From positions 1,488,001-1,552,000 of the forward strand of contig NZ_CP073239.1 of NCBI RefSeq assembly GCF_009670965.2: a stretch of 64,000 bases of DNA. The letters run 5' to 3'. The notes under the pieces were generated by a model. It saw only the letters and a program-made list of their open reading frames with translations, had not been told where the DNA came from and made no database searches. Every line of letters starts with the position of its first letter. Position 1 is the first letter of the stretch. Shown one piece after another: positions 33,233 to 55,768 of this stretch. The position numbers were made by a program, and so were the translations under genes. The stretch comes from Riemerella anatipestifer. GTDB lineage: Bacteria; Bacteroidota; Bacteroidia; Flavobacteriales; Weeksellaceae.

Positions 33233-33268
33233 CAGAGGTGTTCTGCTCGTACGAGCAGAACACCTCTG
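33233..33268. repeat. 36-bp perfect palindrome, core CTCGTACGAG
   Basis: Arms CAGAGGTGTTCTGCTCGT and its exact complement without a spacer. The identical palindrome, with the same flanks (TTATCTAG before, ACAA after, in cassette orientation), is at 55733-55768. It marks the outer end of the left cassette. Confidence 0.95.
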
Positions 33269-33278
33269 CTAGATAAGA

Positions 33279-33314
33279 CAGTTCGCCTCTGCTCGTACGA
33301 GCAGAGGCGAACTG
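33279..33314. repeat. 36-bp perfect palindrome, core CTCGTACGAG
   Basis: Arms CAGTTCGCCTCTGCTCGT and complement. The central 14 bases are shared with the palindrome at 33233, while the outer arms differ, so palindromicity is preserved despite different sequence. Confidence 0.95.
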
Positions 33315-33317
33315 CTA

Positions 33318-33349
33318 AAAAACGGAACACAAATTTGTGTTCCGTTTTT
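33318..33349 (-). terminator. terminator of the left HU-like gene
   Basis: Perfect 32-bp palindrome made of AAAAACGGAACACAAA and its complement, immediately after the HU-like gene stop at 33361. T-rich on both strands, so it can act bidirectionally. Confidence 0.8.
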
Positions 33350-33360
33350 ATGACCTTTAA

Positions 33361-34080
33361 TTAACCAATCACTATAGGCGTAGATAATACCTCTGTTCTT
33401 GGCTCTTTAAGTAGCGTTTTACCATTGCTGTATTGCGTGGTAATGCTGAGTTCGTAGTTCCCTGCTTCTAAATCCGAAGGCACAAGAATGAGTAATCTTG
33501 ATGGCTCGTTAAGCACAATATGCTCGGCTAAGAGTTTCACTTCGTTTTGGTTGTCTAAGTTTTTAAAGACGATACCGTTTTTAAGATTGTCGCCATCTAT
33601 TTTAATGTAAGTACCTTTGATTTCGGCATTCTTGCCTTTGGTAAGTGTGCCGTCTGCTTTGCCTGTAGCTTTGTCGGTAATGCTGAACACGCTCATTGGG
33701 CTGGACTGTTCGCCGAGGATTTCTACCTTGGTGTCGGCTACCGCTTTTCTAAGGTCTAGACCTTGGTTTACATTCACATAAACAGAGTGCTTCTCTTTAT
33801 CCCAAGTTTTATCATAAAATACGCCCTTAATGGCAGGACGCATATACACCAGCCCCGTATTCACACTATAGCCATTGAGTACCAACTCCGAGGCTTTACG
33901 ATTAAAACGAGTAATAATATCTACTGCAGTCTCGGTTTGTATCTCCATACCCTCTTTTTTAAGGGCTTCTATAATTTCTGTAATGCCAAGGCTACCACCT
34001 AGAAGGGGTACGGCTACAAAATCGTTAGGGTCATCTTTAGTCAATAGGTTGGGACGCAACCATGCTTTTAAAGTATTCAT
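33361..34080 (-). CDS. HU-like DNA-binding and Ig-like (DUF4469) protein
   Basis: 239 aa. The N-terminal part (about 1-115; MNTLKAWLRPNLLTKDDPND, then TAVDIITRFNRKASELVLNGYSV and MRPAIKGVF) matches the Bacteroidota HU-DNA_bdg family, distant relatives of HU/IHF. The C-terminal part (about 125-239; KVEILGEQSSPMSVFSITD, PSRLLILVPSDLEAGNYELSITTQ) matches DUF4469, an Ig-like fold. There is no signal peptide, so it is probably a cytosolic DNA-associated protein. Last gene of the left cassette and the intact paralogue of the frameshifted copy at 54736. May act on the adjacent palindromes, but this is inference. Confidence 0.88.
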   Translation of the reverse strand: MNTLKAWLRPNLLTKDDPNDFVAVPLLGGSLGITEIIEALKKEGMEIQTETAVDIITRFNRKASELVLNGYSVNTGLVYMRPAIKGVFYDKTWDKEKHSVYVNVNQGLDLRKAVADTKVEILGEQSSPMSVFSITDKATGKADGTLTKGKNAEIKGTYIKIDGDNLKNGIVFKNLDNQNEVKLLAEHIVLNEPSRLLILVPSDLEAGNYELSITTQYSNGKTLLKEPRTEVLSTPIVIG

Positions 34081-34094
34081 AATATTGATGTTTT

Positions 34095-35258
34095 TTAGTT
34101 TCGTTTTAAAGCAAATAAATAGTTTTCTCTAAATGCCATTGCGGGGTGTAGAGTTGCTGTAGGATTATTACTGAAGCTATTATTAGCCGAAATGTCAAAA
34201 GAAGTTTTTACATAGTAAGTCTTAGATATTGCACTATCATTATTGACCATCCATATTCCATTTGCTACACTATTACCGGAACGTGGTAAATTTACTGATA
34301 CCAATGTAGGACCGCCTTGCATGGCTGCTCCTTGGAAATCCTCTAATTGATTTTTCTTTACTTCAGAAATAATTGCCCTAATCCAAACATTTTGTCCATC
34401 TTTTAGAGCCTCTGTTGCTGTTGCTAAGTAAGCTACATAAACAATCCATTTCCCAGGAGGTAAAGTGATAGATTGTCCTGTATATCTAAAATAGAACAAT
34501 CCAAGATTAGATGGATTTTTCTCTACATCATAAAAAGTTTGCCCTTCCATTATATCTGTATACTCAAAAGTATTTGCGTAAACGATATCTACATTACTTG
34601 GTATGGTAGGGTTGGTTCTACTTACCACTCCTAAAGTACCATCGGGTTTTGCAACTACGGCTTTAGTATATTCGTTTTCTAGCGGTGTAGCATCAGTCAT
34701 TTGGTTGATTTTGGCATTGCCGTTGACCTCTAGTTTTTGTGATGGGCTTTGGGTGCCTATCCCTACATTGCCATCTCCCATAAACGAAAGATTATTAGTC
34801 CCTAGAGTTACCGTTCTGTTACCTGCTAGTGTGCCGTCTGCAGTATAGATATTGGTAGTTATTGGAGAGGTTCCTCCTAGAGGCTTCCAAGTACCCCCAC
34901 TAAGCGTGTTGCTTTTATTTTCATAATAGTAAAACCCAGAGGTAACATCTACATTACCGATAGCAGATTTACCCGTTGCTGTATTATATACTATCATACC
35001 GTCTAAACGGTTAGGGTAAGCTAAAGAAACTCCATTTGGAGTTGCAATTAAGGTATTGAGTTGGGTTAAATCTGTTCTCGGAAAAACTAACCCTTTTCCT
35101 ATGTTGGTGGAGGTATTCCATTGAGGGGTGGACGAAGCGTCTAAAAAAGCAGTCTGATTAGGAATTACATTTTGAGATACTGTTTTGTTCGTCTTAATTT
35201 GAGCATAAGATAAAATATTGATACTTAATGCCACTAATATGAATATTTGTTTTTTCAT
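34095..35258 (-). CDS. secreted surface-type protein, 387 aa
   Basis: Signal peptide MKKQIFILVALSINILSYAQ. The mature protein has low-complexity beta-type sequence with FLDASSTPQWNTSTNIGKGLVFPRTDLTQL and GDGNVGIGTQSPSQKLEVNGNAKI, the VGIGT/LEVNG motif seen in trimeric fibre and tail-spike-like surface proteins of Bacteroidota. The C-terminal 170 residues are unrecognised and contain no obvious T9SS sorting domain. Lies 12 bases downstream of the 216-aa gene and 14 bases upstream of the HU-like gene, clearly one operon. Likely extracellular; function unknown. Confidence 0.82.
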   Translation of the reverse strand: MKKQIFILVALSINILSYAQIKTNKTVSQNVIPNQTAFLDASSTPQWNTSTNIGKGLVFPRTDLTQLNTLIATPNGVSLAYPNRLDGMIVYNTATGKSAIGNVDVTSGFYYYENKSNTLSGGTWKPLGGTSPITTNIYTADGTLAGNRTVTLGTNNLSFMGDGNVGIGTQSPSQKLEVNGNAKINQMTDATPLENEYTKAVVAKPDGTLGVVSRTNPTIPSNVDIVYANTFEYTDIMEGQTFYDVEKNPSNLGLFYFRYTGQSITLPPGKWIVYVAYLATATEALKDGQNVWIRAIISEVKKNQLEDFQGAAMQGGPTLVSVNLPRSGNSVANGIWMVNNDSAISKTYYVKTSFDISANNSFSNNPTATLHPAMAFRENYLFALKRN

Positions 35259-35270
35259 AATAATATAAAA

Positions 35271-35921
35271 TTAAAGACCTGTTGTATTGAGCCATTTTGT
35301 TCCTGTGGATATATAACAAGAAGAGTAACCTGCTGTTAAAGATTGTTGTTGCCCTATAGGTTGTGGGGAAATAGAAACATCATTTTCAGGGCTAAAGAAA
35401 CATAACATTCTTCCTTTATTATCTGCAGTAGGAGCAGGTAAAGTTAAACTACTAGGATTAGTTAAATAGACAAAATAATCGTCATCTTTTATAGTTGGAA
35501 TAGGGGTATCGTCTTCCCTGTAATTTCGTGTGAAAGATTTTGTTTCTGTGGCAGTGGCTGGTCTAACCCATTTAGTCCCATTATAAAAGTAATAGCCCTT
35601 TTCTGTAATATCTGTTACTCTAACATCGGTACCAGTGTAAGACGCTATTGTGCCACCTCCATCTTCTGCATTGGCATCATCTACTACATAGACTAATGTT
35701 CCCTCTTGAGGGGAAGGCATTTTAGCGACTCTTGTTTTAGATAACTTAGGCACAATAATGCCCTCGTTAGTTGCGCCTAATAAGTTAGTTGTATTGGGTT
35801 TTATCTCTAAAGTAGCATTGGGAGATGAGGTGTTAATCCCCACTTTACCATCGGTTTGTCCGTAAGCTATTAGACTTAGACCTAAAAAGGCACTTACACT
35901 TAGTTTGGTTGTTTTTTTCAT
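35271..35921 (-). CDS. secreted VGINT-type surface protein, 216 aa
   Basis: Begins with signal peptide MKKTTKLSVSAFLGLSLIAYGQ at the ATG at 35921. An upstream in-frame extension to 36239 reads through the conserved leader and is rejected. The mature N-terminus GKVGINTSSPNATLEIKP is shared in kind with the right-cassette cargo (RVGINTDKPKATLEIS), and IIVPKLSKTRVAKMPSPQEGTLVYVVDDANAEDGG also resembles it. The C-terminal half has FYNGTKWVRP and a Ser/Pro-rich tail. First cargo gene behind the leader. Confidence 0.82.
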   Translation of the reverse strand: MKKTTKLSVSAFLGLSLIAYGQTDGKVGINTSSPNATLEIKPNTTNLLGATNEGIIVPKLSKTRVAKMPSPQEGTLVYVVDDANAEDGGGTIASYTGTDVRVTDITEKGYYFYNGTKWVRPATATETKSFTRNYREDDTPIPTIKDDDYFVYLTNPSSLTLPAPTADNKGRMLCFFSPENDVSISPQPIGQQQSLTAGYSSCYISTGTKWLNTTGL

Positions 35922-36243
35922 AATGTTTAATTTTAAAAGTTGATATTTAAAGTTTATAGATGTTAGATATTGGATTTTAGATTTTAGAGATTGTATTCTA
36001 GACTTAAAGGTTGAGGAGATACTAAGCTCTAACCTCTCATATCTCACCTCTAACCTAAAAAAATGCCTTTCCCCTCTAAACACACACAAAACGAGAGGAA
36101 AGGCTGAAGCAGAAAGAAAGTAAAAACTCCCTCTCTGAACGCTAAAAGCACCTAACAAAAACGACCATGTTATGAGACAAAACAATGGTGCTTTTAGCAT
36201 GTATTTATGAAAGCTAAATTTAGAATGGTATAAACGCAAAAAG

Positions 36244-36263
36244 CCCCCAACAAAAGTTGGTGG
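36244..36263 (-). terminator. leader hairpin followed by T run (possible attenuator)
   Basis: On the minus strand CCACCAAC pairs with GTTGGGGG (one mismatch), then CTTTTTTGCG. The equivalent hairpin in the right leader pairs perfectly. It lies between promoter and cargo, as an attenuator would. Confidence 0.5.
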
Positions 36264-36434
36264 AATTATATTTACAATTAACGATAAAAGTTGAAGTAAT
36301 TTTCTAGATAATACGACGCATACCCACGAAACTATTTGTGTGTGTTTACGAAATTATTTGAGATAGCCAAATAATCTTGTAACTTTTTTATACTTGTTTG
36401 TATGTAATTGGTATCGTGTATCATAAAACTGAAG

Positions 36435-36465
36435 CAAACTTATTACCTTTTGGGGAAGTATGCAA
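36435..36465 (-). promoter_or_regulatory. cassette promoter, TTG-N20-TAAGTTTG (left)
   Basis: On the minus strand TTG (36465-36463), a 20-base spacer and TAAGTTTG (36442-36435). Both elements and the exact spacing are conserved in the right cassette, although the spacer sequence differs. Confidence 0.75.
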
Positions 36466-36571
36466 ATTTTTGAGAGAAATTTTAATGATACCCACTTCTA
36501 ATTGATTATTGAAAGAGGAGCTAAAAGGGGACAGGTTTGGCTACACTATTTACCTGTCTACTCTAACTAAA

Positions 36572-37516
36572 CTAAAAATCTAGACTCACACTGATTTTTT
36601 TTACAGTTAATTCTGCTTCGGAATACATAATGAGGTCTACATTCATAATATCAATTTTATTCCAATAGAATCCTCCAGAAAATCTACTTTCTAGCACTGT
36701 GGCGGTGTATGTTCCGTTTGGGGATTCTTTGATTTCGTTAGGATAATAGAAGTTTTTAGAACATTGTAGAATTTCTTTCTGTTGTTCGGTTAGGATATTT
36801 ACCTCTCCAAATAATTTGGCAACATAGCTGTTGCTAGGCTTTTTATATAACTCTTGTGGTGTGCCATTTTGAACAATTTGCCCATCTTTTAAAATTAAAA
36901 TTTCATCTAGCCAAGGCATTACTTCCTGTAAATCGTGGGTAGAGATTAGAAGCGTGATGTTTTGTTCTTTAACATAATTAAACAATTTCTTTCTAATATC
37001 TATCGTTCTAGAAACATCTAAATTACTGAAAGGTTCGTCTAGTAATAAGAGTTTTGGTAATAGAGAAAGGGCTCTTGCAATGGCAACTCTCTGTTGTTGT
37101 CCACCGCTGAGGAATTTAGGCTTTTTATCTATTTCATTACTAAGACCCACAATGTCTAAAAGCTGATTGACTTTGTTCTTTTTCTCTTCAAGATTGATGT
37201 TAGAAATAAATTTACCCACATTATCATACACCGTTCCGTAGGGCATCAAATCGTAGTTTTGAGCCACCAATTTCATTTCTTTTTCACCAGGGACGATGTT
37301 GGCTTTTGGACCAAATAAGGGTTTGCCTTCAAAATAGATATGCCCTTCTTGCCAATCCATAAGACCATAGATAAGGCTTAGGAGAGTGGATTTTCCGCAA
37401 CCGCTTTCTCCAGCTATGGCAATGATTTTCCCTTTCTCAAAACTCCAATTGAAATTAGTGAAAATAGAGCGTTCCGAATGATACGAAAAAGATAGATTCT
37501 TTATTTCTAAAAACAT
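36572..37516 (-). CDS. ABC transporter ATP-binding protein
   Basis: 314 aa. Walker A GESGCGKST, Q-loop LVAQNYDLMPYGTVYDN, signature FLSGGQQQRVAIARAL, Walker B LLLLDEPFSNLD and STHDLQEVMPWLDEILIL. The C-terminal 80 residues (TATVLESRFSGGFYWNKI) look like a TOBE-type regulatory domain, as in FbpC/PotA-like importers. No permease or binding protein is adjacent, so the substrate is unknown. Divergent from recG. About 85 bases separate its stop from the left leader and hold a GACAGGT...ACCTGTC inverted repeat. Confidence 0.88.
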   Translation of the reverse strand: MFLEIKNLSFSYHSERSIFTNFNWSFEKGKIIAIAGESGCGKSTLLSLIYGLMDWQEGHIYFEGKPLFGPKANIVPGEKEMKLVAQNYDLMPYGTVYDNVGKFISNINLEEKKNKVNQLLDIVGLSNEIDKKPKFLSGGQQQRVAIARALSLLPKLLLLDEPFSNLDVSRTIDIRKKLFNYVKEQNITLLISTHDLQEVMPWLDEILILKDGQIVQNGTPQELYKKPSNSYVAKLFGEVNILTEQQKEILQCSKNFYYPNEIKESPNGTYTATVLESRFSGGFYWNKIDIMNVDLIMYSEAELTVKKISVSLDF

Positions 37517-37633
37517 AAGGGCAAAAGTAAGGATTTTTACCTTCGGAGATGAGGTTATTGTAGGTTTTTGAGTGTTGAAATTTCATATTAGTTGTAAAAC
37601 CCCTATTTTAGCGGTCTAATAGTTTTCTTGTAA

Positions 37634-39724: not shown

Positions 39725-39762
39725 TTTTTCCCCAAGTATTAAGTGTTTTATTTCTTGTAAAA

Positions 39763-40482: not shown

Positions 40483-40562
40483 TAGAATATCTTTTTGCTT
40501 AATAAGCAATTTTCTTAAATTGCGATTTTATTTTTTAGTAACGACAAAAATATAAATAAAAT

Positions 40563-41496: not shown

Positions 41497-41528
41497 GATT
41501 TATTTTTAAACAAAATTGCAGAAAAATT

Positions 41529-41557
41529 TTGAGAAAACAAAAAAAGCCGTATCTTTG
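41529..41557 (+). promoter_or_regulatory. two-element promoter, TTG-N18-TATCTTTG
   Basis: TTG at 41529-41531 and TATCTTTG at 41550-41557 give a canonical Flavobacteriia promoter 37 bases before the first tRNA-Lys. Confidence 0.75.
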
Positions 41558-41593
41558 CACCACTTTTGAGAACGGAATTATCCTAACTCAAAT

Positions 41594-41666
41594 GACTCGG
41601 TAGCTCAGCTGGTAGAGCAATACACTTTTAATGTATGGGTCCTGGGTTCGAATCCCAGCCGAGTCA
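41594..41666 (+). tRNA. tRNA-Lys(TTT)
   Basis: 73 nt. The acceptor GACTCGG pairs with CCGAGTC; D-arm AGCTCAGCTGGTAGAGC; anticodon loop CTTTTAA; T-loop GGTTCGAATCC. Identical to the copy at 41795. Confidence 0.96.
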
Positions 41667-41695
41667 CAAGATAAAAATCTTAATAAAAGATTTTT

Positions 41696-41779
41696 GCCTG
41701 TGTGGTGAAATTGGTAGACACGCCATCTTGAGGGGGTGGTATCCTTAAGGATGTGCTGGTTCGAGTCCAGTCGCAGGCA
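41696..41779 (+). tRNA. tRNA-Leu(GAG)
   Basis: 84-nt class II tRNA. The acceptor GCCTGTG pairs with CGCAGGC (one G-T); anticodon stem CCATC/GGTGG with loop TTGAGGG gives GAG; long variable arm; T-loop GGTTCGAGTCC. Lies between the two tRNA-Lys genes. Confidence 0.95.
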
Positions 41780-41794
41780 CACAGAAAAAACTTA

Positions 41795-41867
41795 GACTCG
41801 GTAGCTCAGCTGGTAGAGCAATACACTTTTAATGTATGGGTCCTGGGTTCGAATCCCAGCCGAGTCA
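41795..41867 (+). tRNA. tRNA-Lys(TTT), second copy
   Basis: 73 nt, base-for-base the same as the tRNA at 41594. Third gene of the Lys-Leu-Lys unit, a local duplication. Confidence 0.96.
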
Positions 41868-41923
41868 CAATTTGCTGAAAAGTAAATTTTTTTCATATTA
41901 ATATTTTGTGATTTGGTGTTCAG

Positions 41924-41955: not shown

Positions 41956-42108
41956 GTTCTTGTATATGTTTGTAGACTTAGTAAAAAGTGGGTAATCTAA
42001 AATTAATAATGAGTAACCTAATTGTAGGCCTTTTTAGGTAAAGTTTGATAATAGAAGTAAGGTGAAAATATTAGAAGATAATATATAAAAGCTTGATTTT
42101 CAAACATG

Positions 42109-42140
42109 AAAAAAGCACCAACTAATTATTGGTGCTTTAT
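42109..42140 (-). terminator. terminator of tRNA-Met
   Basis: Ten-bp stem AAAGCACCAA / TTGGTGCTTT. On the minus strand it is followed by TTTTTTC, right after the tRNA. Confidence 0.8.
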
Positions 42141-42143
42141 ATG

Positions 42144-42475: not shown

Positions 42476-42483
42476 CACTAGTT

Positions 42484-42843: not shown

Positions 42844-42854
42844 AAAGTAAAACA

Positions 42855-45276: not shown

Positions 45277-45293
45277 TCCTAAAATAAAATAAT

Positions 45294-46601
45294 ATGAGAC
45301 GATTCTTTTTTACAGGAATAACATTACTAGCTTCATCACTTATGTATTCTCAAGAAGTGGTTAGTGTTTCCCAAGAGGATTTAGAAAGAAAAATAGGACA
45401 GCAGAATCTACAGCTAAAACTAGCAGAAGCAGAAGTTAATTCTGCCAAGGCAGATTTACTTATGTCTAGAGCGATGTATTTGCCTAATGTCAACCTTTCT
45501 TATACGGGTATTTCTACCAATAATCCTTTAATGGCATTTGGTTCAAGGCTTAATCAGGAGCGTGTCACTATGATAGATTTTGAGCCTAAAAGACTCAATA
45601 ACCCTGATAATATTTTCAATTTTGCTACTAAGCTAGAGGTGCAACAACCCATCTTTAATCAAGATGCGATTTATCAAAAAAAAGCTGGAGAAGTGCGAGT
45701 AGAGGCATTAACTCTAAAGCAAGAACGAACTAAAGACTATCTTCTCTTTGAAATTAAAAAAGCCTATATGCAACTACAAATGGCCTATAAAGCAGTTGCG
45801 GTGCTAGAAGGAGCTAGAGAAACCGTCTTATCAAATAAAAAAGTTATTGATAACTATTATAAAAACGGAATGCTACAAAAATCTGATGTTTTGGATATGA
45901 ATGTGAGAGTTGCTGAAATAGAGAGCCAAATTCAGTTTTCAAAGTCCAATGTTAAAAACGCTTCAGATTATCTTTATTTTTTATTAAATGAAAATTCCCA
46001 AGGCAAAGTATTAAAACCAACAGAAAGTTTAAACTATAAAGGTGATGCTCTTGTAAATACTCCAGAGCTTAAAAAAGATAGAAAAGATTTACAAGCCTAT
46101 CAAAAATCTTTAGATGCTTACGATTATATGATAAAATCAGCTAAGTCCAAACTATTACCTAGATTAAATGCCTTCGGAAGTTTTGAAATGTATGACAATA
46201 AGCCTTATCAGTTTGATGCCAACGGCTATCTAGTAGGCGTTCAGTTATCGTGGAATGTATTTGATGGCATGAAGTCTAATAGCGAAATCGCTAAGCAAAA
46301 AGCCGAAATATTAAAAACTCAAACCGAAATACAACAATACCAAAAACAAGCAGAATTAGAATTAGTGAAAGCTTACAGGCAAGTACAAGATACTGATAAT
46401 AAAGTGAATCTAACCAAATTAGCATGGGAGCAAAGTGCAGAGGCGTACAGAATCAGAAAAAATAGATACGAACAAGGTCTAGAAAAGGTCTCCGACCTTT
46501 TGAATACCGAAACCGCAATGTCTAAAAAAGAATTAGAATACCAACAAACTATTTTTGAATATAACATCGCATTAGAATACTTTAATTTTTTAAATAAATA
46601 A
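45294..46601 (+). CDS. TolC family outer-membrane efflux protein
   Basis: 435 aa. Signal peptide to MYSQ. Long helical stretches with two repeated OEP halves: LQLKLAEAEVNSAKADLLMSRAMYLPNVNLSYTG and DYMIKSAKSKLLPRLNAFGSFEMYDN are the beta-strand/helix transitions typical of TolC/CusC. Forms the trimeric outer-membrane channel of the tripartite pump encoded with the next two genes, which start two bases and about 1.1 kb further on. Confidence 0.93.
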   Translation: MRRFFFTGITLLASSLMYSQEVVSVSQEDLERKIGQQNLQLKLAEAEVNSAKADLLMSRAMYLPNVNLSYTGISTNNPLMAFGSRLNQERVTMIDFEPKRLNNPDNIFNFATKLEVQQPIFNQDAIYQKKAGEVRVEALTLKQERTKDYLLFEIKKAYMQLQMAYKAVAVLEGARETVLSNKKVIDNYYKNGMLQKSDVLDMNVRVAEIESQIQFSKSNVKNASDYLYFLLNENSQGKVLKPTESLNYKGDALVNTPELKKDRKDLQAYQKSLDAYDYMIKSAKSKLLPRLNAFGSFEMYDNKPYQFDANGYLVGVQLSWNVFDGMKSNSEIAKQKAEILKTQTEIQQYQKQAELELVKAYRQVQDTDNKVNLTKLAWEQSAEAYRIRKNRYEQGLEKVSDLLNTETAMSKKELEYQQTIFEYNIALEYFNFLNK

Positions 46602-46603
46602 TT

Positions 46604-47689
46604 ATGAATAAAATAAAAACAGGCATCTTAGTGGTGGCAGTAGCCGTTTTGGGCAGTTGCTCTTCCGATTCAAAAACAATTACAGATAACAGCCAACTTA
46701 TTAAGGTACAACTCAGTAACTCTTCAGTTACAAACAATTTGGGTTACGCTATGGCAAGTGGCAAGCTGGTTGCCAAAAAATCAGTAAATATTTCTACAAG
46801 AATGATGGGCTACATTACTGGTCTAACGGTAGAAGTAGGTGATTTCGTAAAAGCAGGACAAGGTCTCGTAAGTATTAACAATACTGATATCCAAGCTAAA
46901 GGCGGACAGGTAAACGCCCAAATTGCACAAGCCAAAGCCAATTTTGAAATCGCTCAAAAAGACTATCAGCGTTTTCAAAATCTATACAAAAACCAGAGTG
47001 CTTCTCAGAAAGAGTTAGACGATATGAAAGGGAGATACGATATGGCAAAAGCAGGACTAGACGCAGCCCAAATGATGAAGTCTGAAGTAAACTCACAATA
47101 CAAATATACCAATATCACTGCTCCTATTTCTGGAGTAGTAACTGCTAAATATGCTAACCAAGGAGATATGGCAAGCCCAGGAATGCCTATTTTAACTATT
47201 GAAAGTTCAGGCGATTTACAAGCTCAGGTTTTAGTTTCGGAGCAAGATATTACTTTAGTTAAGAGTGGTATGCCCGTTAAAGTTTTAATGAAATCTACCA
47301 ACCAAGAAATAGCTGGCACCGTGGCAGATGTGAGCCTTTCCGCTACGAATACAGGTGGACAATATTTAGTAAAAATCAACCTTCCACAAAGTAGCAGTTA
47401 TTTACCAGGTATGTTTGTGAATGTTCAGTTTCCATTCAAAAGGAACGGAAAACTTAACCAAGATTTACCAGAGTCTGTAAGTATCCCAAAATCAGCTCTA
47501 GTAGAACAAGGACAGCTTACAGGAGTTTACACCGTAAGTGCTAATAATACCGCAATGCTCCGTTGGATAAAGGTAGGGAAAGTAATGGGAGATCAAGTAG
47601 AAGTTCTTTCAGGGTTATCCTCTCAAGAGCCTTATATTATTTCCTCTCAAGGAAAACTCTATAACGGTGCTAAAGTAAGTATAAAATAA
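46604..47689 (+). CDS. RND efflux periplasmic adaptor subunit (MFP)
   Basis: 361 aa. Lipoprotein signal ending LGSC. A lipoyl/barrel-sandwich half-motif (ARMMGYITGLTVEVGDFVKAGQGLVSI-like, about 65-95), an alpha-helical hairpin (about 100-165), the second half YTNITAPISGVVTAKYANQGDMASPG, then a beta-barrel. Bridges the inner-membrane RND pump and the TolC channel. Same operon, two-base gap from the preceding gene. Confidence 0.94.
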   Translation: MNKIKTGILVVAVAVLGSCSSDSKTITDNSQLIKVQLSNSSVTNNLGYAMASGKLVAKKSVNISTRMMGYITGLTVEVGDFVKAGQGLVSINNTDIQAKGGQVNAQIAQAKANFEIAQKDYQRFQNLYKNQSASQKELDDMKGRYDMAKAGLDAAQMMKSEVNSQYKYTNITAPISGVVTAKYANQGDMASPGMPILTIESSGDLQAQVLVSEQDITLVKSGMPVKVLMKSTNQEIAGTVADVSLSATNTGGQYLVKINLPQSSSYLPGMFVNVQFPFKRNGKLNQDLPESVSIPKSALVEQGQLTGVYTVSANNTAMLRWIKVGKVMGDQVEVLSGLSSQEPYIISSQGKLYNGAKVSIK

Positions 47690-47746
47690 AGCGTTTAACA
47701 GCGGAATAAATTTAATATTTAAACCGCTAAAAAATTAATTAAAAAT

Positions 47747-50700
47747 ATGGAAAAAGGATTTGCAGGACGCATTGCCGAATTTTTCATCAATTCCAAACTC
47801 ACCATTTTATTGATGATTGCATTGATGATAATAGGCGTATATAGCTCTACCCTAATACCTAGGGAAGAAGAACCACAGATTATAGTTCCGATGGCAGATG
47901 TTATGGTAGGCTATCCTGGAGCTAACCCTACAGAAGTAGAAAATAGAGTGGTAAAACCGCTTGAAAAGATAATATCCAACATCAAAGGAGTTGAGCATGT
48001 ACATTCTATGGCAATGAATGGAAAAGCCATGCTTATCGTACAATTTTATGTAGGTGAAGATACAGAACGCTCTTATGTAAAACTCTATGACGAGCTTATG
48101 AAACATAAAATGATGTTTCCTAAAGGAGTTTACGAACCTATAGTTAAAACAAGGTCTATAGATGATGTCCCAATGCTAGGGCTTACACTTTGGAGCGAAA
48201 ACTACAATGATTATCAGTTAAGACAAATAACAGAGGAATTAGCTTCAGAAATAAAAAAAGTAAAAGATGTTTCTCTTACGAATGTTATTGGAGGAAGAGC
48301 CCGCCAACTCAAAGTAATTTTAGATAAAGCTAAAATGGCAGAATCTAGTGTAGATGCTCTTTCTGTAATGCAAATGATACAAGCGAGTAATGGTAGCTCT
48401 CAAACAGGAAGTTTTGTTAATAATAATCAGGAATATTTACTGACTACAGGACAATTTTTAACCTCTAAAGAAGATGTAGAAAACCTTGTCGTAGGGACTT
48501 CTCAAAATATGCCTGTGTACCTAAAGCAAATTGCTAAGGTAGAAGATGGTGCTTCTTCTCCTGCCAATTATGTAAGTATGGGGTTTGGTCAAAATACTGA
48601 AAAAGGACAGAAAAACCCTTCGGAATATCCAGCCATCACACTATCTGTTTCTAAAGTAAAGGGGGCTGATGCTATGAAAATATCAGAACAAATTCTAGAA
48701 AAAGTAGAACATTTAAAGAAAAATCTTATTCCTGCAGATGTACATGTGGAAGTAACTAGAAACTATGGTGAAACAGCTTCCCATAAAGTATCCGAGCTAC
48801 TCATGCACTTAGGCGTTGCTATTTTAGCAGTGACTATTTTGGTAATGCTTGCTATGGGTTGGAGAGGCGGTTTAGTGGTCTTCCTTTCGGTACCTCTTAC
48901 ATTTGCACTTACACTGTTTAGTTATTATGTTTTAGGGTACACTCTTAATAGGATTACACTATTTGCATTAGTATTTGTAGTGGGTATCGTGGTAGATGAT
49001 AGTATTATTATCGCAGAAAATATGCACCGCCACTTCCACATGAGAAAGCTCCCATTTAAAGAAGCGGCTATCTATGCTATCAACGAGGTAGGAAACCCTA
49101 CTATCTTAGCGACTTTTACCGTAATTGCTGCTATTTTACCAATGGCTTTTGTTTCTGGAATGATGGGACCTTACATGAGTCCAATGCCAATAGGAGCTTC
49201 TATAGCAATGTTACTCTCACTTTTTGTGGCACTTACAATCACTCCTTATTTAGGCTATCATCTGCTTAAAGTAAAAGATGATGAGGAACATAAAGAAGAA
49301 CAAGGTCTAGAAACGAGCTTAATTTATAAATGGTACAAAAAAATAGAACAGCCACTATTAGATAGTTCCAAGAAACGATGGACAATATTAGGAGTTACTA
49401 CAGTATTATTGCTGATTTCTGTATTGGCATTTTTCACCAAATGGGTAGCGGTTAAGATGCTTCCTTTTGATAATAAAAATGAAATTCAGGTTGTAATAGA
49501 TATGCCAGAAGGTACACCTTTAGAAAAAACGGCAGCTGTTACCAAAGATGTTGCACAGTATTTAAGAACCGTCCCTGAAGTAGTAAACTATCAAAATTAT
49601 ATTGGAGCTTCATCACCCATTACCTTTAATGGTTTAGTAAGACACTACGATATGAGAGGGCAAAGCAATACCGCAGATATTCAAGTGAATCTTTTGGATA
49701 AATCGGCTCGTTCCAAACAAAGTCATGATGTAGCTAAAACCATTAGACCAGAAATACAAAAGATAGCGAAAAAGTACGGTGCTAATATCAAAATTGTAGA
49801 GGTGCCACCAGGTCCACCTGTGCTTTCTACCATAGTAGCTGAAGTCTATGGTCCTAATTATGAGGAACAGGTAAAAATTGCCGACCAAGTACAACAAATT
49901 TTAAAACAAGCAGATGATGTAGTAGATGTAGATTGGATGGTAGAAGCTCCACAAACAGAGTTTAAAATAATCCCTGACAATGAGAAAAGTATGCTAAATG
50001 GCATCGCACCTCAGCAGTTGGTGGGTAACCTTACTTATCTTATGGGAGAGTATCCTATCTCTACATTGTACGATGAAAAGTCCAATCAGCCTGTTAATAT
50101 GGTTATGAAGCTAGATGATGCCGAAAAAGCTACGCTACAAGACATCACTGCTCTTAAAGTAAAGGGACAAATGGGTAACATGCTTCCTATAAGCGATATT
50201 GCTAAAGTGGAAAAACACACCTTAGAGAAGAGTATTTATAGAAAAGATCAAAAGCGAGTAGTTTATGTTTTAGCTGATATGGCAGGTGTCTTAGAAAGTC
50301 CAGCCTACGCTATATTGGGTATGGAAGAAAAACTCAAAAAAATGAATCTCCCTGAAGGATATAGCATCAATGAGTTGTATATGGCACAGCCTTCTGATGA
50401 AAGCGATTTTACCGTAAAATGGGACGGAGAGTGGCAAATCACTTTAGAAGTATTTAGAGACTTAGGAGCTGCTTTTTTAGTAGTTATCATCATTATTTAT
50501 ATGTTGATTGTAGGTTGGTTTCAGAACTTTAAAACACCTATTGTTATGATGGTTGCTATACCTCTTTCTTTAGTGGGTATTGTACTAGGGCATTGGTTGT
50601 TAGGAGCATTCTTTACCGCCACTTCATTTATCGGAATGATAGCCTTAGCTGGTGTAATGGTAAGGAACTCAGTATTGTTAATAGACTTTATAGAAATTAG

Positions 50701-50971
50701 ATTGAAAGAAGGTGTACCTATGAAACAAGCAATTATAGAAGCTGGAGCGGTAAGAACAACGCCTATCTTGTTAACTACTGGAGCAGTTGTGATAGGAGCG
50801 GTAATTATTCTCTTTGACCCTATTTTCCAAGGTCTAGCAATATCATTGGTTTTTGGAGCTATAGTTTCTACAGTTCTTACCCTTCTTGTAGTCCCTTTGG
50901 TATATTATATGACAGAGAAAAAGAAATGGGATAAAATCCAATCGGAACAATCTGCAGAAATACCAGAGTAA
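47747..50971 (+). CDS. RND efflux pump permease (AcrB/CzcA superfamily)
   Basis: 1074 aa with the expected 12 transmembrane segments in two repeats and two large periplasmic loops. IPREEEPQIIVPMADVMVGYPGANPTEVENRV is the porter-domain start; VFVVGIVVDDSIIIAENMHR contains the paired Asp of TM4 that carry the proton relay; GMIALAGVMVRNSVLLIDFIEIR is the second-repeat counterpart. Substrate (drug or metal) is not predictable from sequence reading; a hydrophobic-compound HAE-like pump is likely. Third gene of the efflux operon. Confidence 0.94.
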   Translation: MEKGFAGRIAEFFINSKLTILLMIALMIIGVYSSTLIPREEEPQIIVPMADVMVGYPGANPTEVENRVVKPLEKIISNIKGVEHVHSMAMNGKAMLIVQFYVGEDTERSYVKLYDELMKHKMMFPKGVYEPIVKTRSIDDVPMLGLTLWSENYNDYQLRQITEELASEIKKVKDVSLTNVIGGRARQLKVILDKAKMAESSVDALSVMQMIQASNGSSQTGSFVNNNQEYLLTTGQFLTSKEDVENLVVGTSQNMPVYLKQIAKVEDGASSPANYVSMGFGQNTEKGQKNPSEYPAITLSVSKVKGADAMKISEQILEKVEHLKKNLIPADVHVEVTRNYGETASHKVSELLMHLGVAILAVTILVMLAMGWRGGLVVFLSVPLTFALTLFSYYVLGYTLNRITLFALVFVVGIVVDDSIIIAENMHRHFHMRKLPFKEAAIYAINEVGNPTILATFTVIAAILPMAFVSGMMGPYMSPMPIGASIAMLLSLFVALTITPYLGYHLLKVKDDEEHKEEQGLETSLIYKWYKKIEQPLLDSSKKRWTILGVTTVLLLISVLAFFTKWVAVKMLPFDNKNEIQVVIDMPEGTPLEKTAAVTKDVAQYLRTVPEVVNYQNYIGASSPITFNGLVRHYDMRGQSNTADIQVNLLDKSARSKQSHDVAKTIRPEIQKIAKKYGANIKIVEVPPGPPVLSTIVAEVYGPNYEEQVKIADQVQQILKQADDVVDVDWMVEAPQTEFKIIPDNEKSMLNGIAPQQLVGNLTYLMGEYPISTLYDEKSNQPVNMVMKLDDAEKATLQDITALKVKGQMGNMLPISDIAKVEKHTLEKSIYRKDQKRVVYVLADMAGVLESPAYAILGMEEKLKKMNLPEGYSINELYMAQPSDESDFTVKWDGEWQITLEVFRDLGAAFLVVIIIIYMLIVGWFQNFKTPIVMMVAIPLSLVGIVLGHWLLGAFFTATSFIGMIALAGVMVRNSVLLIDFIEIRLKEGVPMKQAIIEAGAVRTTPILLTTGAVVIGAVIILFDPIFQGLAISLVFGAIVSTVLTLLVVPLVYYMTEKKKWDKIQSEQSAEIPE

Positions 50972-51078
50972 CTTTAAAACAAATTTTCACATAAACATTG
51001 CTAGGTGTTTTTTAAAATAACTTAGCAATGTTTTCTAATTTAAGAGATAAATAACAACAGAAATACATTAGTTAAAAA

Positions 51079-51285
51079 ATGAAAACAAGAATAATACACG
51101 CTGTAGCAGGAACTATGGTTTTAACCAGCTTACTACTGGGACTTTATGTGCACGAAAATTGGTTTTTCCTTACAGGTTTTGTGGGGCTTAACTTATTACA
51201 ATCCTCTGTAACTAACTGGTGTTTACTCAAAACTATTTTAGAAAAAATAGGTATTGAAGATGATAGCAATAGTTGTGGCTATTAG
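51079..51285 (+). CDS. DUF2892 (YgaP-like) membrane protein
   Basis: 68 aa. Two hydrophobic segments, VAGTMVLTSLLLGLYV and WFFLTGFVGLNLLQSSVTNWC, followed by LLKTILEKIGI, the YgaP-type DUF2892 pattern. In rhodanese-linked or efflux contexts this small inner-membrane protein is common, function unknown. Positioned 107 bases after the RND gene and ended by a terminator, so probably the last gene of the efflux operon. Confidence 0.85.
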   Translation: MKTRIIHAVAGTMVLTSLLLGLYVHENWFFLTGFVGLNLLQSSVTNWCLLKTILEKIGIEDDSNSCGY

Positions 51286-51310
51286 ATGTTGCTAGACACT
51301 TAAATAAAAA

Positions 51311-51335
51311 TAGGCTACCTTTTAAGGGTAGCCTA
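51311..51335. terminator. bidirectional terminator
   Basis: TAGGCTACC / GGTAGCCTA nine-bp stem between the convergent DUF2892 and lipoprotein genes. Confidence 0.8.
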
Positions 51336-51352
51336 TGCTTATTAGAAACAAT

Positions 51353-52186
51353 TTATTTATTGTAGGTGATGGTATAGGTATTAGTATCACTGCTACTGCC
51401 ATTGCTGTTATTTGAGTAAGTATAAGTACTAACTATATTAGTAGGGTAGCTATTTGAGTTATAGGTATTTTGATATGTTGTTTTATAGGTATTGCCGTTG
51501 CTATCAATTGAGGTATAGGTAGTATAATTATTTTGTGTAAAAGATAATTCGCCCTCCATAATAAGATTTAGACCTAATAGAGCTTCCTTAAACCCAGCTA
51601 TATTCTTGAAAATACCATTTTTATCATCATAAGAAATAGTGCTATTAAAAACACTTGTGGAATATTGAGATGTATGTGTACTTACATATTTAGAAACCTG
51701 TCCGTCTGTGAGTGTGTAGACATAAGACCCACTACTAGTGTAAGTGCCACTTGGATAGGTATAAACTTGAGTTTCTTCAGTTGTTACAGTACCATCGGTA
51801 TTATAGGTATAATTAGTTTCTATCTTTAAACTATATTGTTTGTTGTTTTTAGTTCCTGTTGATATGGTTTTGGTAAGTCTACCATTGAGGTATTCAAAGG
51901 TAGTAGTAGTAATATCTACATCTTTTTTTTCAATAATTTTAGAAATAAGGTTGTTAGAGTACTCAAAATTGATAGTGTTAGTATCTGAACCATAAGCTCC
52001 AACTATTTCTAATAGTTTATTTCCGTTATAGGTAAGAGTGATAGTGGAATCGTCGCCGTCTTCTGATGTAGAATGAATTTTAGTAGGAAGTATAGGGATA
52101 CTTTCGGTTACGGTTTCATCATTTTCACTTCTGTTACAAGACATTAGGGCTGCTGCCATAGCAGTCATTAGGATATATTTTTTCAT
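51353..52186 (-). CDS. hypothetical Thr/Ser/Asn/Tyr-rich lipoprotein
   Basis: 277 aa. The lipoprotein signal MKKYILMTAMAAALMSC is clear. The mature protein is made of short beta-type segments (ITLTYNGNKLLEIVG, INFEYSNNLISKIIEK, TTTFEYLNGRLTKTIS, YTYNTDGTVTTEETQ) resembling the degenerate YD/RHS-like repeats of DUF4595-type Bacteroidota lipoproteins. Probably exposed in the periplasm or on the surface; function unknown. Its promoter region (52187-52265) abuts the start of the right cassette. Confidence 0.8.
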   Translation of the reverse strand: MKKYILMTAMAAALMSCNRSENDETVTESIPILPTKIHSTSEDGDDSTITLTYNGNKLLEIVGAYGSDTNTINFEYSNNLISKIIEKKDVDITTTTFEYLNGRLTKTISTGTKNNKQYSLKIETNYTYNTDGTVTTEETQVYTYPSGTYTSSGSYVYTLTDGQVSKYVSTHTSQYSTSVFNSTISYDDKNGIFKNIAGFKEALLGLNLIMEGELSFTQNNYTTYTSIDSNGNTYKTTYQNTYNSNSYPTNIVSTYTYSNNSNGSSSDTNTYTITYNK

Positions 52187-52285
52187 AGTAAATATTTTTC
52201 TACAAATTTAAGAATAATATAGACCTTATAAAACCTACCTAACAGAAAAATTAAGAGAGTTTTGCATAAAATTTCTCTCAAAAAC

Positions 52286-52316
52286 TTGCATACTTGCTTA
52301 AAAGGTTATAAGTTTG
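52286..52316 (+). promoter_or_regulatory. cassette promoter, TTG-N20-TAAGTTTG (right)
   Basis: TTG at 52286-52288, a 20-base spacer and TAAGTTTG at 52309-52316. Matches the left cassette promoter in elements and spacing. Confidence 0.75.
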
Positions 52317-52403
52317 CTCCAGTTTTATGACACACGATACCAATTACATACAAACAAGTATAAAAAAGTGCCCGAATTATTTGGCTATTTCAAATAATTT
52401 CAT

Positions 52404-52440
<37 letters not shown>

Positions 52441-52511
52441 TAGTTTCGTGGGTATGCGTCGTATTATCTAGAAAATTACTTCAACTTTTATCGTTAATTA
52501 TAAATATAATA

Positions 52512-52537
52512 CCGCCAACTTTCGTTGGCGGGTTTTC
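52512..52537 (+). terminator. leader hairpin (possible attenuator)
   Basis: Perfect 8-bp stem CCGCCAAC / GTTGGCGG with a TTTC loop, followed by GTTTTCG. It lies upstream of the cargo gene, where an attenuator would act; the T run is short. Confidence 0.5.
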
Positions 52538-52930
52538 GTATTTACACCATTCTAAATTTAGCTTTCATAAATATCTACTAAAAGCACCATTGTTTTGTCT
52601 TAAAACATGGTCGTTCTTGTTGGGTGCTTTTAGTGTTCAGGGGGAGCGTTATGCTCTTTCTGTCTTAGCCTTCCTCCTCGTTTTGTGTGTGTTTAGAGGG
52701 GGGAGGCGTTTTCTCATTGGTTCAAGAGTTCAAGGTTTAAAGTTCAAATATTCAAGGGGTAAGGGTTTAAGGTTTAAAGTTCAAAAATTCAAGGAATCAT
52801 CGGAGCTATTGAACTACGCCCCCAGAACTTTAAACTTTTTTACAACTTCACCATTAGCAATTTTACAATTTCACAACCAACAACTAGCAATTAACAATTT
52901 CACAACTTAACATCTATAAACTTTAACATT

Positions 52931-54676
52931 ATGAAAAAAACTTTGTTATGCGCGGTGTTTCTGCCTTTGGTGCTGAACGCCCAAGATTACAGTGGCAGAG
53001 TGGGCATCAATACCGATAAGCCCAAAGCTACTTTAGAAATTTCTAAGGTGGCAGTAAGCCCCACAATGCCTGCCACTAAAGCACAGGGAGTGCTATTTCC
53101 TAAATTTACCTCGGAGGAGCGTACGAAATTTTCGGGGACTGCCGAAGAGGGAACTATAATCTACAACATAGAGAAACGCTGTCTAGAAATGTACTTGGGT
53201 CTAGTCTCAGGCGTGCCCCACTGGGCGTGTTTGCCCGATGTGGCATCGGCAAAATCTCAAAGTGTAGCGGTAACGGCGGCAGGTTTTGAGGGCTCTTATG
53301 TGGGAGGCGTTCCGTTTACTGGCGCCAACAAAGCCAAATTTAAACTAGAGAACAACTCGTTTTCTACTGTTAGCTCGTCTTTTGCCGATGCGGTTACGGT
53401 GCAGAATGGTATGGCTACTATTTCGGCAGGTAATTGCCAATGGCAAAAGCTCAATGGTTCTACGCTCATAGGTAGTGCGGCATCGTGTGCCTCGCCCAAC
53501 CTTATCACTTTGAACTCGGGGGAGTCGGCATTATTAACGTATACGATGAGTGGCACGCCAGCCACAGGTACTTTGACGGCAAACTTTAGCAAGTTGGGAG
53601 CTCAAGCCGACCAACAGACCCAAGTAGGCTTAGGCACTGCCACCATTACCAGCCCTAAAACGGAGTATGTGGTTTCGCTCACTTATGACGGAACGACCCC
53701 AAAAACAGAAGTTCAAGGCAAAATCAACAATACCTCCAATAAACTCATTGTAAAAATACCTTACGAAAATGGTAGTGGTTCTTATAATGCCGTAACCTCT
53801 CAACCAGTAGCTACCACTGCAGGACAAGGTAATGATACCAATACGCTTACACTTAATATCCCAGCAGGAAACTTTGGCGTGAATGGGGTTTTAGAAGCCA
53901 CTATAAGTGTAGATGGCGATGGGGAGTATCTCGTAAAAATGTTACCACCAGGGGAAGAGTACATTATTGCTACCATACCTTACACGCTTAATGGTAATAA
54001 TTACGAAGTGGTGCTTAAAGGTATTGGGGGTGTTCCAGATAAGAAGTTTAATGTCCTAACCAACGGAAAATTAGAGCATCAGTTTATCTATATTCCTATA
54101 AAAGGGAGTGATGGTAGAACGTGGCTTAATAATAACTTAGGGGCAGACTATGCTAACCTCAATTCTCCTGTTTTTAACCCTTTACAGCAAGCCACTAGTA
54201 TAAGAGATAAAAACGCTTATGGTTCTCACTTCCAGTGGGGGCGTGATGCTGATGGGCACGAGCTGGTAACTTATCCAACGGAAACCACAGGAAATAGAGT
54301 GTATCCTAATATTCCGTTGTATGATGAGGTCCAGTTGTGGACTTATACTAATAATCCTTGCCCTAATGGTTATCGTATGCCTACCACAACCGAATGGAAT
54401 GCATATAGGGCTTTACTTCCTTCACCAGCCAATGCCCCTGTTTGGTTTAACGACCCATTAAAACTGACGGCTACTGGTATGGCAGACTACCCTGGGGGAT
54501 GGATGCTAACTCCAGGTAACTATGAATTGTGGGCTAGGTATGGCTCATCAACTGTGAGAGAGAATAAGTTTTGGCAATCTTTGACTATATTTTACCAAAC
54601 CTCATATGCTAACTATGATGCGGCGGGTCCTTATTATTTAAAGTACCCACGAACAATCCGCTGCGTTAAGGATTAG
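52931..54676 (+). CDS. secreted VGINT and FISUMP domain protein, 581 aa
   Basis: Signal peptide MKKTLLCAVFLPLVLNAQ. The N-terminal RVGINTDKPKATLEISK module is followed by KAQGVLFPKFTSEERTKF, similar in type to the left-cassette cargo. The middle is beta-rich (about 100-370). The C-terminal 210 residues (GRTWLNNNLGADYAN, YGSHFQWGRDADGHEL, CPNGYRMPTTTEWNAYRAL, and the final RTIRCVKD) are a Fib_succ_major (FISUMP) domain with C-type-lectin-like fold. Extracellular adhesin or binding protein is likely. No T9SS sorting domain is obvious. Confidence 0.85.
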   Translation: MKKTLLCAVFLPLVLNAQDYSGRVGINTDKPKATLEISKVAVSPTMPATKAQGVLFPKFTSEERTKFSGTAEEGTIIYNIEKRCLEMYLGLVSGVPHWACLPDVASAKSQSVAVTAAGFEGSYVGGVPFTGANKAKFKLENNSFSTVSSSFADAVTVQNGMATISAGNCQWQKLNGSTLIGSAASCASPNLITLNSGESALLTYTMSGTPATGTLTANFSKLGAQADQQTQVGLGTATITSPKTEYVVSLTYDGTTPKTEVQGKINNTSNKLIVKIPYENGSGSYNAVTSQPVATTAGQGNDTNTLTLNIPAGNFGVNGVLEATISVDGDGEYLVKMLPPGEEYIIATIPYTLNGNNYEVVLKGIGGVPDKKFNVLTNGKLEHQFIYIPIKGSDGRTWLNNNLGADYANLNSPVFNPLQQATSIRDKNAYGSHFQWGRDADGHELVTYPTETTGNRVYPNIPLYDEVQLWTYTNNPCPNGYRMPTTTEWNAYRALLPSPANAPVWFNDPLKLTATGMADYPGGWMLTPGNYELWARYGSSTVRENKFWQSLTIFYQTSYANYDAAGPYYLKYPRTIRCVKD

Positions 54677-54735
54677 CCAACCTTATAAATTAGACTTTAT
54701 GATAAAAAATATTTAACCTTTAAATACTATATATT

Positions 54736-55456
54736 ATGAATACTTTAAAAGCGTGGTTGCGTCCCAACCTACTCACCAAAGACGACCCTAACGATTTTGT
54801 AGCCGTGCCACTTCTAGGCGGCAGCCTTGGCATTACAGAAATTGTAGAAGCTCTTAAAAAAGAAGGTATGGAGATAAAAACCGAAACTGCGGTAGGATAT
54901 TATCACCCGTTTTAACCGTAAAGCCTCAGAGCTGGTACTCAACGGTTATAGCGTAAATACTGGGTTAGTCTATATGCGTCCTGCCATTAAGGGTGTGTTT
55001 TACGACAAAACTTGGGATAAAGAGAAGCACTCCGTTTATGTCAATGTAAACCAAGGCACCGACCTAAGAAAAGCCGCCAACGATACCAAAGTAGAAATCC
55101 TCGGCGAGCAGTCCAGCCCAATGAGTGTGTTCAGCATCACCGATAAAGCTACAGGCAAAGCAGACGGCACACTTACCAAAGGTAAGAATGCGGAAATCAA
55201 AGGTACATTCATTAAAATAGACGGCGATAACCCTAAGAACGGCATCGTCTTCAAAAACCTAGACAACCAAAATGAGGTCAAGTTGGCTAAAGACAGTATC
55301 GTAATCAACGAGCCGTCAAGGGTGCTTATCCTTGTGCCTTCGGATTTAGAAGCAGGTAACTATGAGCTAAGCATCACTACGCAAAGCAGTAAAGGTTCTA
55401 TTTTATTAAAAGAGCCAAGAACCGAAACTCTAAACACGCCTATTACTATTGTGTAG
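54736..55456 (+). pseudogene. frameshifted HU-like/DUF4469 gene
   Basis: Paralogue of the gene at 33361-34080, nearly identical in translation over its length. An extra G at 54895-54896 (GTAGGATATT against GTAGATATT in the intact copy) shifts the frame, and the first frame stops at 54913-54915. The original frame resumes from 54896 and continues to 55456. The insertion is not in a long homopolymer, so it is either a real mutation or a sequencing error. If real, only truncated products of about 59 aa and up to about 160 aa are possible. Confidence 0.85.
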
Positions 55457-55480
55457 TGTATTTTTGGCACTTCTAATAAC

Positions 55481-55529
55481 GAATGCCCTTCCTTAATATT
55501 AAGGAAGGGCATTCCCCTTATAAGGGGAA
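55481..55529. repeat. adjacent palindromes after the right HU-like gene
   Basis: A perfect 34-bp palindrome at 55481-55514 (GAATGCCCTTCCTTAAT and its complement) overlaps an 18-bp palindrome TTCCCCTTATAAGGGGAA at 55512-55529. Could act as a terminator for the cassette. The interval 55457-55807 carries no gene. Confidence 0.85.
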
Positions 55530-55571
55530 GACACCTCACTGCCTAAGGCGAAGCCTCTTCCCTCGGTAAGG

Positions 55572-55607
55572 GGAAGACGCTTCACTCGTACGAGCGAAGC
55601 GTCTTCC
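55572..55607. repeat. 36-bp near-perfect palindrome, core CTCGTACGAG
   Basis: Arms GGAAGACGCTTC-A-CTCGT and complement with a single A/C mismatch. Same length and core as the palindromes at 33233, 33279 and 55733, but different outer arms. Confidence 0.9.
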
Positions 55608-55732
55608 GTTTGGGACAAGGCTATCCCCCTCCAAATAAAATGAAATGCCAACATCCCAACGGATAAGGTCAATGGGGTACTATTACCACCTCCGTTCTGC
55701 CTTACCGAGCAGAGAGGTCCTGCCTTATCTAG

Positions 55733-55768
55733 CAGAGGTGTTCTGCTCGTACGAGCAGAACACCTCTG
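55733..55768. repeat. 36-bp perfect palindrome, core CTCGTACGAG
   Basis: Identical to 33233-33268, with the same flank TTATCTAG before and ACAA after. Marks the outer end of the right cassette. Short CTGCCTTAYCKAGCAG-like hairpins precede it at about 55697-55735. Confidence 0.95.

Follow-up and report, generated by a model that had tools for sequence, protein, structure and literature searches.

Secreted-protein operons of Riemerella anatipestifer probably controlled by phase-variable transcription attenuators

In a stretch of 64,000 nucleotides (nt) from Riemerella anatipestifer (contig NZ_CP073239.1, positions 1,488,001 to 1,552,000; hereafter the window), we studied two oppositely oriented units, unit A (36487-33233, minus strand) and unit B (52266-55768, plus strand), in which a leader precedes genes for secreted proteins (the cargo) and a gene with HU-DNA_bdg and DUF4469 domains (HU/DUF4469). 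We consider it probable, with fair confidence, that such units are separately promoted operons for secreted (probably surface) proteins, each governed by a phase-variable transcription attenuator. This reading draws on patterns in the DNA, namely a promoter motif, a (CA)n tract, a single open frame maintained by selection, hairpins that covary, cargo that differs between two genomes at common sites, and a permutation of unit flanks between genomes.

Two units with similar ends and different cargo

The comparison of units A and B confirmed what the initial annotation had claimed of them, that they have a leader, an HU/DUF4469 gene and an end palindrome in common and carry different secreted cargo. 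The parts follow one another in the same order in both units: leader, cargo with signal-like N termini (judged by eye), HU/DUF4469 gene and palindromic 3' end. Inverted repeat pairs were found at 36337-36484/52267-52414 (91% identity), 36125-36345/52430-52650 (90%), 33921-34085/54731-54895 (91%) and 33536-33921/54896-55281 (87%), and an identical perfect palindrome of 36 nt is present at 33233-33268 in unit A and at 55733-55768 in unit B. All other features of unit A given below lie on the minus strand and those of unit B on the plus strand, except for the 36-nt palindromes, which are given without strand.

The cargo of unit A consists of a VGINT protein of 216 amino acids (aa; 35271-35921) and a 387-aa protein without a Pfam match (34095-35258), and that of unit B is a single FISUMP-like protein of 581 aa (52931-54676), whose relatives are named FISUMP. 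Its own matches to TIGR02145 (5.6e-4, 20.6 bits) and PF09603 (12.3 bits) fall under the respective cut-offs of 41.65 (curated) and 33.9. Among the matches listed, most of its close relatives have PF26696 and several have PF09603. A search of Rfam at the gathering threshold returned nothing but tRNAs.

The leader and its open frame

The leader proved to be a shared part, as the initial annotation had stated, with the correction that the shared part starts at the promoter, with TTG at 36465 and 52286. The annotation had missed a (CA)n-bearing upstream open reading frame (uORF) and hairpins, which suggest a switch for each unit. From 5' to 3' the leader contains a Bacteroidota-type promoter, the short uORF with its (CA)n tract, and T-tailed hairpins, after which the cargo follows.

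Further copies were sought in related genomes. G001 (strain CCUG25054, the nearest genome compared), G004 (a complete genome) and G005 form the R. anatipestifer group together with the window; the others were G003 (R. columbina), G002 and G006 (also, like G004 and G005, members of the genus Riemerella), G007 (Bergeyella cardium), G042 (Bergeyella zoohelcum ATCC 43767) and G066 (Ornithobacterium rhinotracheale). The search for further units, which the initial annotation had proposed as a check, showed that the leaders form a family whose copies run to dozens in some genomes: leader DNA gave 37 matches in G001, 34 in G004, 3 in G005, 23 in G003, 3 in G002 and none in G006, some of them being pieces of one site. 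Of the 25 G001 sites that counted as new (short matches aside) 20 were used, together with 20 in G004 and one each in G005 and R. columbina. The final table holds 78 leaders from three genera (27 from G001, 25 from G004, 3 from G005, 3 from G003, 2 from the window, 9 from G042 and 9 from G066), made up of a first set of 25 and a second set of 53; the latter are those of 60 loci that fitted, and were selected by, a pattern of box, ATG and (CA)n, the regular expression finding no leader at the remaining 7. Leaders are commoner than the HU/DUF4469 gene, and their layout is also found in B. zoohelcum and O. rhinotracheale. Among 197 genomes of the family, the pattern of box, ATG and (CA)7 occurs in nine, which are four of Riemerella, G042, G066 and three more of the genus of G066; in the last three the sequences differ and the matches may be due to chance.

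The promoter motif TTG ... TAnnTTTG, which we take to be the Bacteroidota promoter consensus, is complete in 24 of the 25 leaders of the first set. In unit A it occupies 36435-36465 (-33 TTG at 36465-36463, -7 box TAAGTTTG at 36442-36435) and in unit B 52286-52316 (TTG at 52286-52288, TAAGTTTG at 52309-52316). The uORF mostly starts with an ATG 9-11 nt past the box, and the (CA)n tract mostly lies 80 nt further on, inside the uORF. In unit A the uORF has 30 codons and a stop (36332-36424) and contains (CA)4 (36337-36344), the corresponding site in G004 (L051) having n = 24; in unit B it has 38 codons and a stop (52327-52443) and contains (CA)16 (52407-52438). A role of the tract as promoter spacer was considered and dropped, because the promoter is complete upstream of it.

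Past the tract, 72 of the 78 leaders have one frame that is open for at least 180 nt, the other two being closed by 100 nt (median of the second frame 33). In unit A this long frame enters the first cargo gene in frame; in unit B it covers 52439-52910 and stops 20 nt ahead of the cargo ATG, and none of 1000 shuffles was equally long. A first gene was found behind 65 leaders, and in 46 of them the long frame ends between -11 and +64 nt from its start. With regard to chance, no shuffle in 1000 was as long as the open frame for 16 of 24 leaders, and the worst case was 43 in 1000. Neutral simulation from an open ancestor along the copies' own tree broke a mean of 53.4 of 54 copies, as against 3 of 54 observed, and when the branches were shortened tenfold the mean was still 38.1 and the lowest of 200 runs was 6. 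Simulation and shuffles together indicate that the open frame is kept in one register by selection.

Both units of the window are out of the long frame and read as OFF (n = 4 and 16). Among the 73 ungapped leaders, 11 read as ON by frame (G001 0/24, G003 1/3, G004 3/25, G005 1/3, window 0/2, G042 2/7 and G066 4/9).

Hairpins between the uORF and the cargo

An alignment of 32 leaders from the R. anatipestifer group, out of the 54 in the simulation set, revealed three helices with two-sided changes, HP1 (followed by a T run), HP2 and HP4, the last being a stem of 12 base pairs (bp) with a T run and mostly -20 to -23 kcal/mol. Paired cells numbered 218/224, 308/314 and 341/342 for the three hairpins, with two-sided changes in 7, 27 and 11 cells. 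In unit A they are located at 36244-36264 (HP1, then a T run), 36141-36198 (HP2) and 36065-36104 (HP4, terminator-like, -21.2 kcal/mol, with T run), and in unit B at 52512-52531 (HP1, -15 kcal/mol, then a T run), 52577-52634 (HP2) and 52668-52707 (HP4, terminator-like, -23 kcal/mol).

At a threshold of -15 kcal/mol, which was set after a permissive scan at -6 had proved powerless, a T-tailed hairpin was present in 57 of 71 leaders compared to 16 of 852 shuffles (71 of the 78 leaders were examined); by genome the counts were 20/23 in G001, 22/25 in G004, 3/3 in G005, 2/2 in the window, 1/3 in G003, 0/6 in G042 and 9/9 in G066. The position of the hairpins relative to the stops is also evident. 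In all 60 leaders with a hairpin of -12 kcal/mol or stronger, the hairpin ends past both OFF stops, and in 56 of these 60 the long frame reaches the hairpin.

In both units the HP4 loop (GTTTTGTGTGTGTTTA) and the CA tract (AAACACACACAAA) have complementary sequences (36077-36092 with 36337-36344, and 52680-52695 with 52407-52438), and pairing of the two inside the leader RNA is possible. In the Ornithobacterium leader displayed, the loop of the strongest hairpin is a different one.

These data bear on two further explanations. The first, that the product of the long frame is a real small protein, itself made in a phase-variable manner and without control over cargo expression, would fit the median omega of 0.56 for the leader frame (207 pairs of 21 leaders; 4 of 25 left out), a value suggesting that the peptide itself is weakly kept, and the conserved hydrophobic stretch (LLGAFSVQ..LAFPLVLCVFRGE) of many leaders in the R. 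anatipestifer group. We nevertheless regard it as unlikely, as layout and openness persist in R. columbina, Bergeyella and Ornithobacterium although their peptides appear, by eye, to be unrelated, and as the frame overlaps the covarying hairpins and mostly ends by the cargo start or fuses with the cargo. Still less probable is an effect of the (CA)n tract on mRNA stability or on the start of translation, with no attenuation involved and with an open frame inherited from recent duplication: the copies are indeed related, but the simulation on their own tree speaks against this even when its branches are reduced tenfold, and the pattern recurs in other genera.

Cargo exchange and chromosome rearrangement

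Four sites have both flanks present in two genomes, namely WA/L051, WB/L052, L021/L054 and L024/L053 (WA and WB being units A and B). As assembled, the tract differs in length at all four (4/24, 16/14, 15/11 and 15/39). The cargo differs at three of them, which supports the proposed modular system, in which the ends are shared and the cargo can be exchanged. At WA/L051 the cargo is the same save for its 3' end. At the other three, homology continues from the 5' flank into the leader. For WB and L024 it extends to where the shared leader ends, and for L021, whose leader is shorter, it breaks off earlier; it restarts 8, 1 and 2 nt ahead of the HU start codon (WB/L052, L021/L054 and L024/L053, respectively). 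Among the matches listed, the cargo of WB is closest to that of L022, at another site in G001 (80% over 1,804 nt); for the HU gene of WB the closest is that of L037 (93%), the positional partner L052 ranking 15th (85.5%). The leader and the HU/DUF4469 gene are also long blocks of homology, through which recombination, within the genome or with imported DNA, could swap the cargo and sometimes rearrange the chromosome. R. anatipestifer is reported to be naturally competent (PMC8459023), so that uptake followed by homologous recombination would be a ready source of exchange.

The units also mark rearrangement breakpoints between genomes. In G005, three junctions without a unit join nuclease to alkaline phosphatase (L072), LpxK to HPD (L064) and a metB-like gene to MNIAS (L060), and in G001 units stand between nuclease and HPD (L073), LpxK and MNIAS (L031), and metB and alkaline phosphatase (L039); apart from alkaline phosphatase, the flank genes were named by eye from their sequences. 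The three left and three right flanks thus form a closed permutation between G005 and G001, the pattern that recombination among units would be expected to give. The L073 unit ends with a 128-aa HU-like gene in place of HU/DUF4469.

The 15.8-kilobase (kb) segment enclosed by units A and B was not seen inverted: it is collinear in G004, where it lies between these two sites in unchanged orientation, and non-contiguous in the other five genomes searched, its pieces being scattered in G001 and G005. The suggested inversion of this segment is therefore unsupported. Collinearity with G005 stops at about 41966-42142, just past two identical tRNA-Lys genes (41594-41667 and 41795-41868) on either side of a tRNA-Leu. 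Between the units there is also a TolC/HlyD/RND efflux operon, as the genes were read (45294-50971), for which a real nucleotide match was obtained in only one of six Riemerella genomes, G004.

The HU/DUF4469 gene and the palindromes

The HU/DUF4469 gene of unit A (33361-34080, 239 aa) matches the HU-DNA_bdg (1.7e-43) and DUF4469 (4.9e-34) profiles, and a fragment of the corresponding gene in unit B (54736-55456) also showed both domains; the frame of that gene is broken near 54895 by one extra base relative to unit A (at 54890-54896). The median omega for 25 Riemerella copies without stops or N was 0.073, which indicates strong purifying selection and hence a working protein, not merely a homology arm. 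It may be guessed that the HU-like protein is a DNA-binding regulator co-produced with the cargo. PF14848 scored above its cut-off in 8 of 31 genomes. Full-strength copies number ten in G001, ten in G004 and two in G005; G002 and G006 have none. A leader is located upstream of 20 of the 24 HU/DUF4469 units from the R. anatipestifer group. The four leaderless units (L043, L046, L047 and L049) all have upstream a repeated 292-aa open reading frame (ORF; MNNIEQIYERILEV...), presumably an insertion sequence transposase, which occurs in or beside these and four other G004 units (L050, L052, L059 and L063). In nine of the 53 second-set leaders (L125, L128, L130, L132, L133, L139, L143, L147 and L152) the first gene encodes a 127-aa HU-like protein; that of L133, the one scanned, matches HU-HIG (PF18291, 3e-34).

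The palindrome does not hold up as a constant end, since among the units of the R. anatipestifer group the identical 36-mer is restricted to A, B and L039. Unit A has two more palindromes ahead of the terminal one, a terminator-type palindrome of 32 nt (33318-33349, AAAAACGG..CCGTTTTT) and one of 36 nt with the core TCGTACGA (33279-33314). Of the 24 R. anatipestifer-group units, 11 have a perfect palindrome with this core within 900 nt past the HU gene. The 16-base core of the palindrome is found at two sites in G001, four in G004 and none in the other four genomes of the genus. Nothing was found that makes the palindromes recombination sites; they look like terminator-type 3' ends, and as they are missing from 13 of the 24 units, a role as constant end or recombination site was rejected. 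The shared ends and palindrome had been read in the initial annotation as a cassette that is invertible or driven by a recombinase and that varies the surface by inverting, which we consider very improbable, for although units occur in both orientations and their flanks are permuted between genomes, the 15.8-kb segment keeps its orientation in G004, the palindrome is so often absent, a promoter motif of its own precedes nearly every first-set unit (the second-set leaders were selected for the box), and no recombinase domain was present in the five unit proteins scanned.

Proposed mechanism

We propose that transcription begins just ahead of the uORF and that RNA polymerase would then meet T-tailed hairpins able to stop it. 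The (CA)n tract within the uORF would change length by slippage. In one of the three frames (ON), ribosomes would be taken through the hairpins towards the cargo and block the terminators, so that transcription goes on; in the other two (OFF), ribosomes would come off within some 5-50 nt, short of the hairpins, and transcription would end.

Several observations weigh against an attenuator of this kind. A strong T-tailed hairpin is missing in 14 of 71 leaders, including all six of B. zoohelcum (about -12 kcal/mol), and R. columbina has one in just 1 of 3; moreover, under the permissive terminator scan (-6 kcal/mol) leaders could not be told apart from shuffles, most of which passed too. The frame pattern fails in 6 of 78 leaders (L128, L135, L140, L171 and the gapped L165 and L166), and L027 lacks a usable uORF. 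The long frame runs on into the first gene in 4 of 65 leaders and ends 96-682 nt short of it in 15, and the omega of this frame may reflect some constraint on the peptide itself. ON is found in 10 of 51 tracts with n of at least 7, which is rarer than one third, suggesting that OFF is favoured in sequenced cultures, and n is below 7 in 22 of the 73 ungapped leaders, which may be frozen. It should also be kept in mind that all tract lengths come from assemblies, which are error-prone at repeats (5 of 78 leaders are gapped at the tract), and that the relatedness of the leader copies means that their counts are not independent.

Somewhat less firmly than the attenuator itself, we favour a broader view in which several Weeksellaceae genera possess a genome-wide, stochastic array of RNA attenuators, with two dozen or more independent dinucleotide-switched leaders in some genomes. 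Most of these leaders would be OFF, and each would steer an exchangeable surface operon, often together with an HU-like DNA-binding protein, so that switching and exchange would jointly set the repertoire; the design would be common to the genera while the leader sequences differ. If true, this would be a large contingency-locus system for Weeksellaceae of birds and people. It would offer an explanation for the repeats that break short-read assemblies of Ornithobacterium, and would make the ON/OFF state readable from sequence. It would also be a warning that a surface gene cloned from a given isolate may not be expressed in another, or may have been replaced there.

Comparison with known systems

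Cassette or gene-conversion systems of antigenic variation, such as Borrelia vls and Neisseria pilE, have constant flanks around a recombining variable interior. The units resemble them in their constant flanks, but there is no single expression site with silent donors here, each unit having its own promoter motif and proposed switch. Bacteroides varies its surface at many loci by means of invertible promoters; this too is surface variation in Bacteroidota, whereas the switch proposed here resides in a dinucleotide tract, and neither an invertible promoter nor a recombinase was found in the window units.

Among the titles and abstracts on Riemerella that were listed, a search outside of which most subscription journals fall, none described this system, and in the available text of a Riemerella genome announcement 'phase variation' occurs in a reference only (PMC4335342). 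For Ornithobacterium hominis, the FSD genes belong to the FISUMP/FSD family and are adjoined by a repeat of similar size. The accessible parts of the texts on them mention a 'putative phase variation mechanism', call the 450-bp repeat noncoding and give no mechanism (PMC10353427, PMC13183296), whereas in O. rhinotracheale, the Ornithobacterium compared here, the nine leaders have both a uORF with a (CA)n tract and terminator-like hairpins. The word 'phase' is absent from the main text, as available, of the 2019 Ornithobacterium description (PMC6421346).

The closest likeness is to Pil1 and Pil3 of Streptococcus gallolyticus, which likewise have a repeat in a leader-peptide ORF and a surface operon downstream; for the pil1 operon, the available text describes experiments showing that repeats in the leader peptide shift the stop relative to a terminator (PMC3894217). 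The OFF stops of Pil1 lie 39-49 bp ahead of a stem-loop terminator and the ON stop within or beside it (PMC3894217). The same traits recur in the leaders studied here: a promoter followed by a short ORF with a non-triplet repeat (24/25, and 53/60 where selected by pattern), frames that stop before the terminator versus within or after it (60/60 and 56/60), and a stem-loop with T run between the start of the leader ORF and the first gene (57/71). Pil1 differs in having a GCAGA unit, two pilus loci, a Firmicute host and experimental tests (PMC3894217), while the system proposed for Bacteroidota has a CA unit, 27 leaders in G001 and 25 in G004, several stacked hairpins, cargo exchange and HU-like genes. 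The attenuation mechanism as such is thus already known from S. gallolyticus, and what appears to be new is its use in Bacteroidota, its copy number, its link to cassette exchange and the reading that it gives to the '450-bp noncoding' repeats of Ornithobacterium.

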